A program made the position numbers and the translations under genes. Shown in pieces: positions 56,332 through 59,451 of a stretch of 64,000 nt of DNA. The DNA is from Deltaproteobacteria bacterium (GTDB lineage: Bacteria; Myxococcota_C; UBA6777): the NCBI GenBank assembly GCA_002731275.1, contig PCBK01000052.1, positions 186,001-250,000 on the forward strand, given 5' to 3'. Below the pieces are notes generated by a model. That model did not search any database, was not told the origin of the DNA, and worked only from the letters and a program-made list of their open reading frames with translations. How positions within the stretch are numbered: position 1 is the stretch's first letter; every line of letters begins with the position of its first letter.

Positions 56332-56648
56332 CTATCATTCTCTTATGTTATCCTCTCTTCAATCCAAACACAGTCACCCTCTGCATCGGATGTTGCCTTG
56401 TCAAGAGGTCTCGTTTTCGAAGTACAGCTATGTATTCTCGGAAGATGAAGTCCTTTGTGGACACTAGAGGTCAAGAGCACACCAAAGAAAGTGCTACGGA
56501 TGCATCACCTCATCAAAAGTCCTCATCCTGTTGCATAAAGTGCACTTATCCATAACAGAGACATCGACCTGATGTCAATGAATCGAACACACCGACAATG
56601 ACTTGTGAAAACAAATACAAGAGCATACGAAGAATCATTCACAACAGA

Positions 56649-56731
56649 GGAAGGTATGGGATTCGAACCCACGCACCCTTTCGGGCTCGCCGGCTTAGCA
56701 AACCGGTGCCTTTCCGCTCGGCCAACCTTCC
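56649..56731 (-). tRNA. tRNA-Ser(GCU)
   Basis: GGAAGGT/ACCTTCC acceptor, loop TTGCTAA, long variable arm, GGTTCGAATCC T-arm; CCA not encoded. Confidence 0.95.
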
Positions 56732-56779
56732 AAAACATGCGCGTTTTTGGATAGAGACACGCATACAACTCGTTACAGA

Positions 56780-56862
56780 GGAAGGTACGGGATTCGAACC
56801 CGTGCGCCCTTTCGGACTCGCCGGCTTAGCAAACCGGTGCCTTTCCACTCGGCCAACCTTCC
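56780..56862 (-). tRNA. tRNA-Ser(GCU)
   Basis: Same fold, loop TTGCTAA; differs in variable/T arm. Confidence 0.95.
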
Positions 56863-56880
56863 ATATATCAACAACATTGC

Positions 56881-56963
56881 GGAGAGGACGGGATTCGAAC
56901 CCGCGAGGCATTTATGCCCACCTGTGTTCCAAACAGGCTCCTTCGCCACTCGGTCACCTCTCC
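56881..56963 (-). tRNA. tRNA-Ser(GGA)
   Basis: GGAGAGG/CCTCTCC acceptor, loop TTTGGAA, long variable arm; G73. Confidence 0.95.
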
Positions 56964-56968
56964 AATCA

Positions 56969-57051
56969 GGAAGATATGGGATTCGAACCCATGCACCCTT
57001 TCGGGCTCGCCGGCTTAGCAAACCGGTGCCTTTCCACTCGGCCAATCTTCC
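56969..57051 (-). tRNA. tRNA-Ser(GCU)
   Basis: GGAAGAT/ATCTTCC acceptor, loop TTGCTAA. Confidence 0.95.
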
Positions 57052-57099
57052 AAAATATGCGCGTTTTTGGATAGAGACACGCACACAACTCGTTACAGA

Positions 57100-57182
57100 G
57101 GAAGGTATGGGATTCGAACCCATGCACCCTTTCGAGCCCACCGACTTTCGAGATCGGAGCCTTTCCACTCGGCCAACCTTCC
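57100..57182 (-). tRNA. tRNA-Ser(CGA)
   Basis: Loop CTCGAAA, long variable arm, same acceptor family. Confidence 0.95.
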
Positions 57183-57212
57183 GTAAAGGATTTACTTTTC
57201 CAAGACAACAGA

Positions 57213-57295
57213 GGAAGGTACGGGATTCGAACCCGTGCACCCTTTCGGGCTCGCCGGTTTTCAAGACCGGTGCCTTGCCGCTCGGCCAACCTTCC
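57213..57295 (-). tRNA. tRNA-Ser(UGA)
   Basis: Loop CTTGAAA, long variable arm. Confidence 0.95.
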
Positions 57296-57662
57296 AAATA
57301 GAGTCCGCAATACGCTGCTGCGCAGACTACATCGACGAAATGTCAAACTTAGACAACGCTCTCGCTTCCATCATGACGGACGCAAAGATGCATCAAGGTT
57401 TGAGGTCGTTGAATTCAAAAAGAATGTGGAGATGAGCGTACACAAGAGGTCGCAACTGAAGCTCTCAAGAAACCAGACAGTCGGCTCCAGAGTCTACATG
57501 CGCAGACTCTCGTCGTCGTGAGGCGTCGCAGACACAGCGATGCTATGTGTTCTGCTCACGCTTTGCCTGAGGCTTCATCATTGGCCCTCTTGTGTGCGCT
57601 TCTTTGCACCCAACGGCCTTAGATTTTGTACTTGAAATGAAATGGTGTTTGTCGTGCGAAAC

Positions 57663-57692
57663 AAAAAACCCCGTTGATTGAGACCAACAGGG
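57663..57692 (-). terminator. Rho-independent terminator
   Basis: Minus strand CCCTGTTG-gtctcaat-CAACGGGG-TTTTTT (one mismatch in stem). Confidence 0.6.
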
Positions 57693-57726
57693 CTGAGTAC
57701 GTTGAGTATGTAAACTCGTGACTCAG
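57693..57726 (-). ncRNA. hairpin preceding the terminator (candidate leader/sRNA)
   Basis: CTGAGT.ACG.AGT...ACTC..CGT.ACTCAG nested stem. Confidence 0.35.
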
Positions 57727-57916: not shown

Positions 57917-57956
57917 GGTGAGTTCAAAAAAAGTCAGATTTTTTTTTGAACTCACC
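57917..57956. repeat. perfect 16-bp inverted repeat, 8-nt spacer
   Basis: GGTGAGTTCAAAAAAA-gtcagatt-TTTTTTTGAACTCACC. Confidence 0.95.
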
Positions 57957-58113: not shown

Positions 58114-59451
58114 ATGAGCGTGATCGCCATGGAAGTTGTCGAAAAGAAAAATCACCCAAATGCCGATGCATTGAAGATTTACCAATTTCAAGCGCCGGGC
58201 TTCGACACGATCCAGGTGATCGCCAACCTGGAAAATGAGTACGAACCTGGTGATGTCGTCGCCGTCGCACAAATCGGCGCGCACCTCAAAGACGGACTCA
58301 AGATAAAGAAGACACGGCTGCGTGGGGTTGAATCATATGGAATGGCCATGGGAACAGTCGACCACGAACCAGGTACAGATCTGACGACAGAGCACTGTCT
58401 TCCTCCAGAACCAGTGAAGGTAGATGCCGAGACATTCCCAGTCAAAGTCGCGAAATGGACGAGCATTGAACTGTTCCACAATATACGACGCTCCCTCGAC
58501 AAAGAGAAAGAGCTCGATGGGGAGGCCTTCACCTACCCCAAGGTCACTTACAAAAGCAAAATCAAACTCGACGGCACCAACGGTGGGATCCATCTCCTTC
58601 CGGATGGGACAGTGATCCCACAGAGTCGCTCTCGACTGCTCACTGTGCGCGACGACAATATCCAATTTGCAGCGTGGGTAGAGGCCAACAACGCATACTT
58701 TTCGGCGCTCGCACGTTCACTCGGACAACATACCATCTTGTTTGGAGAGTGGTGTGGAAAGGGCATCCAAAAACGCACCGCGATCTCAAAAATTGATCGC
58801 AAAATCTATGCAGTATTCGCCGTCCAATACGGCGACCACAACGAACTCGATGCCATGCTCGATGTCGAGCCAGCGCGCATACGCGCGCTGCTCCCTTCGC
58901 ATCCCGATATCTACGTGTTGCCATGGCTTGGTGACGATCTCGTCATCGACTACGGCGATCAAGCACAAATGCAAACCATCGCGACACAGCTCAATACATT
59001 TGTCGAAGACGTAGAGCACAAAGACCCGTGGGTCTCTGAGCACTTTGGCGTCGAAGGACTTGGCGAAGGGATCGTCCTCTACCCATTTCTCAAAGAGATG
59101 ACAGAGGGACCTGTACACCGAGGAGATTGTACAGGACTGATGTTTAAAGCAAAGGGCGAAAAACACCGCGTCGTCAAACAAAAAAAGTCCGTTCAGATCG
59201 ATCCAGAGGTCGCACAGAGCATCGAACAATTCGTCGATATGTTTGTCACACAAGCCCGCCTTGAGCAAGGTCTCCAAGAAGCCTGTGAAGGTGAAGCTGA
59301 CCCTCGCAAAACGGGTAACTTTCTCAAGTGGTTTGGACAAGATGTCAAAAAAGAGAGCGTCGCGGAGCTAGAAGCATCCAACCTCGAATGGAAAGATGTC
59401 TCCAAAGCCGTTATGAACCGAGCCAAAAAATGGTATCTCACACAAGCATGA
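58114..59451 (+). CDS. Rnl5-like ATP-dependent RNA ligase with N-terminal tRNA-binding-type OB domain
   Basis: OB: NHPNADALKIYQFQAPGFDTIQVIANLENEYEPGDVVAVAQIGAHLKDGLKIKKTRLRGVESYGMAMG; ligase motifs KIKLDGTNG (I), FGEWCGKGI (III), GEGIVLYP (IV), MFKAKGEKHRVVKQKK (V). RBS CAGGAG. Confidence 0.9.
   Translation: MSVIAMEVVEKKNHPNADALKIYQFQAPGFDTIQVIANLENEYEPGDVVAVAQIGAHLKDGLKIKKTRLRGVESYGMAMGTVDHEPGTDLTTEHCLPPEPVKVDAETFPVKVAKWTSIELFHNIRRSLDKEKELDGEAFTYPKVTYKSKIKLDGTNGGIHLLPDGTVIPQSRSRLLTVRDDNIQFAAWVEANNAYFSALARSLGQHTILFGEWCGKGIQKRTAISKIDRKIYAVFAVQYGDHNELDAMLDVEPARIRALLPSHPDIYVLPWLGDDLVIDYGDQAQMQTIATQLNTFVEDVEHKDPWVSEHFGVEGLGEGIVLYPFLKEMTEGPVHRGDCTGLMFKAKGEKHRVVKQKKSVQIDPEVAQSIEQFVDMFVTQARLEQGLQEACEGEADPRKTGNFLKWFGQDVKKESVAELEASNLEWKDVSKAVMNRAKKWYLTQA

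Follow-up and report, generated by a model that had tools for sequence, protein, structure and literature searches.

A supernumerary array of six serine tRNA genes in a Myxococcota genome, probably grown by tandem duplication and anticodon switching

Introduction

How does a bacterial chromosome come to carry six consecutive tRNA genes for a single amino acid, and what would they add to its decoding capacity? The question is raised by a stretch of 64,000 nucleotides, hereafter the window (G000:C3:186001-250000), in a metagenome-assembled genome (MAG) of 10.75 Mb distributed over 200 contigs. A preliminary description of the window reported six tandem minus-strand tRNA-Ser genes with long variable arms, comprising every isoacceptor and three GCU copies, and suggested that this unusual grouping would allow co-regulated serine decoding.

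Gene content and structure of the array

ARAGORN and Rfam both recovered the array as described. Its six genes, all tRNA-Ser on the minus strand, represent the entire tRNA content of the window; they span 649 bases (56647-57295) and carry, in plus-strand order, the ARAGORN anticodons GCU, GCU, GGA, GCU, CGA, and UGA. Each gene was called by both programs:

56647-56731, minus strand: tRNA-Ser(GCU) copy 1, apparent switched-anticodon paralogue
56778-56862, minus strand: tRNA-Ser(GCU) copy 2, apparent switched-anticodon paralogue
56879-56963, minus strand: tRNA-Ser(GGA), Rfam 49.4 bits, with G73, apparently of another lineage than the remaining five
56968-57051, minus strand: tRNA-Ser(GCU) copy 3, apparent switched-anticodon paralogue, with a compensatory change of an acceptor-stem pair from G-C to A-U
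57098-57182, minus strand: tRNA-Ser(CGA), Rfam 55.6 bits, apparent switched-anticodon paralogue within the array clade
57211-57295, minus strand: tRNA-Ser(UGA), Rfam 60.8 bits, transcribed first, apparently keeping the founder's anticodon

The Rfam scores of 49.4-60.8 bits exceed the tRNA cut-off of 29 bits and are co-located with the ARAGORN calls. None of the six genes looks like a pseudogene, and the pseudo or non-Ser copy that would have told against the preliminary description was not found. With standard wobble, GGA, UGA, CGA, and GCU together decode all six serine codons, and the array is thus serine-only and complete in isoacceptors, with GCU present three times.

The long variable arms were also verified: the five paralogues have a variable region of 17 nt with a 4-pair stem, corresponding to a class II long arm, and the GGA member is similar. 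The G1-C72 and G2-C71 pairs are invariant across all six tRNAs, and the D-loop GG and the T-loop TTCGAAT are kept. In the five paralogues, 120 of 120 stem cells are paired, with three pairs altered on both sides, and this pairing with compensatory changes suggests that the genes are under selection for the fold. CCA is encoded by no array tRNA, as is also the case for the genome's standard Ser tRNAs. When amino-acid labels were shuffled over 100 tRNA genes of the genome, keeping its 11-member CAT array among the labels, a run of at least six occurred in 3 of 20,000 shuffles. Chance alone would thus hardly produce a same-amino-acid run of this length; tandem duplication accounts for five of its members.

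A complete standard serine set elsewhere in the genome

The genome has about 100 tRNA genes, compared to 49-66 in four family relatives, as counted from Rfam hits plus ARAGORN on selected stretches. Counting the other tRNA-Ser genes, a check proposed in the preliminary description, revealed that the array is not the only complete Ser set: of ten such genes, the array holds six, and the others belong to a standard cluster on contig C23 with the order GGA, CGA, Arg-ACG, GCU, UGA. The same order is found in the relatives G001 and G003 and in the unrelated genomes G031 and G101, while in G002, G004, and G061 the standard cluster lacks TGA, which is located elsewhere. Since the standard set on C23 is complete, the array is an addition to it. 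A nearly Ser-only cluster holding all isoacceptors, interrupted by a tRNA-Arg, is therefore an ordinary conserved arrangement.

The array and the standard cluster (read from its other end, UGA, GCU, Arg-ACG, CGA, GGA) have in common that the four isoacceptors lie together. However, the standard cluster is interrupted by the tRNA-Arg, contains a gap of about 600 bp, and has one copy per anticodon; each of its tRNAs belongs to an old separate lineage, with G73 throughout.

Serine accounts for 6.2-6.4% of codons in the genome and 6.5-6.7% in the relatives, and AGY codons make up 32-33% of serine codons, compared to 31-34% in relatives without the array. Codon use, another check proposed in the preliminary description, is thus ordinary, and its match with the relatives gives no sign of a raised demand for serine or AGY decoding that would explain the array.

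Distribution of the array

DNA searches did not find the array in four family relatives, nor in 39 other genomes, which have only single or standard Ser tRNAs. Four Myxococcota genomes bearing the RNA ligase that adjoins the array likewise have only single or standard Ser tRNAs, and a coarse search of 195 other genomes (partly the same as the 39), in which few candidates were scored per genome, again yielded single or standard Ser tRNAs and not the array. No phage or plasmid record covers 80% of it; the matches are single tRNAs with about 69-83% identity. Nine viral contigs matching a 23-base GCU anticodon-arm pattern were discarded as chance stem matches, their clusters being mixed Asn/Ser/Gln/Tyr/Ile. 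In the literature, covered incompletely, we came across no description of a bacterial array that is both serine-only and complete in isoacceptors. The claim that the locus is unusual is thus upheld for the array itself, which the four relatives lack and which, at the sensitivity applied, went undetected in about 190 further genomes, but not for nearly Ser-only complete clustering, which is standard.

Paralogy, apparent anticodon switching, and block duplication

Excluding the anticodon, array members 1, 2, 4, 5, and 6 share 87-95% identity, compared to 58-63% between these five paralogues and the genome's own GCU and CGA tRNAs; the array CGA tRNA is 61% identical to the genome's own CGA. Their closest matches outside the array are UGA tRNAs of other genomes (78-84%; 78-83% for the array UGA member). 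In the likelihood tree, the five form one clade (91/91) beside the UGA tRNAs of G002, G004, and G012, and the array GCU and CGA copies are nearer to UGA tRNAs than to tRNAs with the same anticodon. Constraining all GCU tRNAs to one clade was rejected (p-AU 0.006), as was joining the array GCU tRNAs with those of the family (p-AU 0.022). The trees use about 85 columns, few of their branches have strong support, and the constrained groups were picked after the first tree. The array GCU and CGA copies thus appear to descend from a UGA tRNA by a switch of anticodon, the direction of the switch being the one suggested by these sequence comparisons. The GGA tRNA is 65-71% identical to the other five members and 76-77% to standard GGA and CGA tRNAs. 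A single clade of all six is not rejected (p-AU 0.32), but from these identities the GGA gene is probably of separate origin.

Part of the array is itself a duplication, as alignment of two blocks to each other reveals:

56968-57182, minus strand: block A, tRNA-CGA, 46-nt spacer, and tRNA-GCU3
56648-56862, minus strand: block B, tRNA-GCU2, 46-nt spacer, and tRNA-GCU1
57052-57097, minus strand: spacer of block A, matching that of block B at 44/46 positions and predicted to form a hairpin
56732-56777, minus strand: spacer of block B with the same predicted hairpin

The blocks differ at 20 positions over 215 nt: 14 mismatches lie in the first tRNA, 2 in the 46-nt spacer, and 4 in the second tRNA. 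A 24-nt region at the anticodon arm of the first tRNA contains eleven of the 20, and this concentration suggests that the arm of one copy was replaced after the block had been duplicated, which may have occurred by gene conversion or by serial mutation. The predicted spacer hairpins are a possible processing element.

Serine is a natural case for such switching because SerRS is blind to the anticodon (PMC7661048, PMC9976931): copies remain serine tRNAs under any serine anticodon. One founder, duplicated and switched in anticodon, would hence account for the Ser-only content.

Discriminator base and charging

Position 73 is U in all array tRNAs except the GGA member, whereas it is G in that member and in the 29 non-array tRNA-Ser compared (30 in all). 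Five of the six array members therefore lack the G73 by which a tRNA-Ser may be recognized. In E. coli in vivo, G73 is a moderate, not the main, determinant of serine identity, which resides mainly in the variable arm, with no use of the anticodon (PMC9976931). Judged from these sequence features, U73 lowers confidence in charging but would leave the membership of the five among tRNA-Ser unaffected, and serylation of the array tRNAs is likely, if possibly weakened. The genome has one SerRS gene; a second was rejected, the sole weak match on C3 falling below the cut-off.

Candidate transcription signals and neighboring genes

The array spacers measure, in plus-strand order, 46, 16, 4, 46, and 28 nt, and a scan of the minus strand revealed no terminator-like site in them. 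With such short spacers (4-46 nt), a common strand, and no internal terminator, a single precursor transcript is plausible. Two features lie upstream:

57341-57346, minus strand: TTGACA hexamer, candidate -35 only, 51 nt upstream of the first tRNA
58114-59451, plus strand: RNA ligase gene (RNA_ligase PF09414 and tRNA_bind PF01588), divergent from the array

No good -10 was found near the TTGACA, and the promoter scan made no call there. The closest relatives of the RNA ligase are from Myxococcota/Deltaproteobacteria MAGs. A linkage between ligase and tRNAs was rejected, as no tRNA lies in the fetched flanks of its homologues, whether in the relatives, in a cyanobacterial MAG, or elsewhere; the ligase, outside the array, is probably a chance neighbor. 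Between it and the array lie a 12-pair terminator-like hairpin (57667-57694, minus strand) and an A/T-rich inverted repeat (57917-57956), which possibly bound a small separate transcript. A FemAB-like gene (PF04339) is located about 21 kb from the array, and PADLOC found no defense gene among the neighbors tested.

Function of the array and alternative explanations

The array is most probably a supernumerary chromosomal Ser tRNA cluster, in which a UGA founder was copied in tandem and anticodons were switched, providing redundant translational capacity. A tRNA-Ser(UGA) gene would have been duplicated, with three copies switching to GCU and one to CGA, and a tRNA-Ser(GGA), probably separate in origin, would have been placed among them. 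The six genes would then probably be expressed as one minus-strand precursor that RNase P and further nucleases process, with CCA added post-transcriptionally. Charged by the genome's single SerRS, the products would add redundant capacity in translation to that of the four standard Ser tRNAs.

Co-regulated decoding driven by demand, as put forward in the preliminary description, would have the cluster raise all Ser tRNAs jointly with emphasis on AGY. The full isoacceptor set, the three GCU copies, and the short spacers are in line with it, but serine and AGY use are the same as in relatives without the array and a complete standard set exists on C23, which leaves this proposal unsupported and, in our estimate, quite unlikely. 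The array could instead back up the Ser tRNA pool against anticodon nucleases or tRNA damage, the switched arms escaping cleavage and the adjacent RNA ligase repairing what is cut. In mycobacteria, VapC toxins cleave the UCN serine tRNAs at GA in the anticodon, and phages rich in tRNA genes bring tRNA-Ser(gct) in their place (PMC10264068), which is reminiscent of a UGA founder giving rise to three GCU copies; moreover, position 32 or 38 of each array anticodon loop departs from the corresponding standard isoacceptor, the adjoining RNA ligase has a tRNA-binding domain, and an antidefense role has been discussed for mycobacterial tRNA arrays. However, searches for two families found neither VapC-type PIN (PF01850) nor PrrC-type AAA_13 (PF13166) in the genome, the UGA, CGA, and GGA copies retain GA, leaving three members UCN, the tested neighbors include no defense gene, and in relatives the conserved ligase gene has no tRNA next to it, so that we give such a backup role a small chance. 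A broader version also appears unlikely: arrayed tRNAs would form a second, genome-wide set in this family of Myxococcota, and within it U73 and altered anticodon arms would mark a specialized Ser set that is charged or cleaved differently from the standard one and assumes serine decoding when the cell is stressed.

A role outside translation would be very unlikely: U73 in five of six members, compared to G73 in 30 other tRNA-Ser, might entail poor or different charging and a use in aminoacyl-tRNA-dependent peptide or cell-wall synthesis or in sensing, and a FemAB-like gene is present at about 21 kb. Yet this gene is not adjacent and its use of tRNA is only putative, while the D-loop GG, the T-loop TTCGAAT, the long variable arm, and the G1-C72 and G2-C71 pairs, all kept, fit use by SerRS and EF-Tu. 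Although tRNA clusters are frequent on phages and large plasmids, it is highly improbable that the array belongs to a phage, a plasmid, or an integrative element, given its mid-contig position on a 595 kb contig of host-like tetranucleotide composition, the absence of integrase, phage, and plasmid genes among the tested flanking proteins, and the restriction of phage and plasmid matches to single tRNAs. Equally little weight goes to an assembly or binning artefact, with array and standard cluster stemming from different organisms or copies being misassembled. The MAG has an estimated contamination of 5.5%, but in composition both C3 and C23 show their highest correlation with reference contigs from the genome itself, SerRS is single-copy, the C3 RNA ligase is closest to that of a family relative, and copies of 87-95% identity are different enough to avoid collapse.

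As a redundant cluster derived from a UGA founder, the array would be a clean natural example of the growth of a bacterial tRNA gene set, with duplicated blocks and spacers still recognizable. A switch between the unconnected serine boxes UCN and AGY, permitted in principle, appears frozen in one locus, and because U73 is shared by all five paralogues, the contribution of G73 to serine identity could be tested in a bacterium other than E. coli.

Comparison with known tRNA systems

Anticodon switching is a known route of tRNA set evolution (PMC7661048, PMC9976931). In Pseudomonas fluorescens SBW25, tandem tRNA duplication was described and a switch from serTGA to serCGA proposed, not observed (PMC7661048). 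Duplication of a tRNA-Ser(UGA) followed by anticodon change is also the route that the array suggests, although here the switch, read from sequence, would extend to GCU across the UCN and AGY boxes, and the copies lie close together. Anticodon-shifted or remolded tRNAs of eukaryotes (PMC3923123) and mitochondria (PMC4783518) are likewise duplicates that gained a new anticodon; in the array, unlike these, the amino acid is still serine and the standard tRNAs are retained.

The tRNA array units of Tran et al. (2016), in the definition quoted in PMC5966550, have at least 20 tRNA genes per region and at least 2 per kb. By that definition, the Ser array is dense enough (6 genes in 0.65 kb) but too small, with six genes rather than 20. 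It resembles array units (Tran et al. 2016; Morgado and Vicente 2018, PMC5966550) in high density and redundancy with standard genes, but serves one amino acid rather than many, looks chromosomal, and has no HNH gene seen nearby.

Other tRNA arrays and related observations

The genome is rich in further tRNA arrays, among them duplicated ones on contigs that look chromosomal. Eleven tandem tRNAs of about 70 nt each, ten of them CAT, lie at L034:8683-9562 (G000:C121:35682-36562), apparently in repeated units, on a contig that carries chromosomal-type genes. In the relative G002, four tandem tRNA-Pro genes on C34 (L182:3046-3413; GGG, CGG, TGG, GGG) cover a whole codon box. These arrays suggest that local tRNA duplication is habitual in the family, which favors redundancy over a design specific to serine.

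Mixed tRNA arrays occur at contig ends, with 13 genes at L025:108-1308 (G000:C65) and 8 at L029:8337-9013 (G000:C200). They include a tRNA-Leu of about 75 nt without a long variable arm, and similar short tRNA-Leu are found in arrays of the relatives G001, G002, and G003. Four consecutive tRNA-like RNAs at L045:8151-8872 (G000:C41) and a fifth at L035:8790-8907 (G000:C81), directly behind a DUF2828/DUF7788 gene, have the anticodon arm replaced or expanded by about 50 nt with a conserved hairpin (TTTTGTAGAAAAC.CCTCAGCA). Rfam assigned them to the tRNA family only, and the hairpin motif was found neither in four relatives nor in 55 other genomes nor in viral contigs; they are somewhat reminiscent of the bacterial Y RNAs that mimic tRNA. 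A tRNA with anticodon TTA (64 bits, L031:8743-8818, G000:C5:45742), which would read the stop codon UAA, just precedes a gene with a translation initiation factor IF-3 N-terminal domain. Finally, a 2441-aa open reading frame at L217:7063-14385 (G000:C122), additional to the normal rpoB on C34, is RNA polymerase beta-like, possibly fused to beta-prime, and matches phage families of unknown function.
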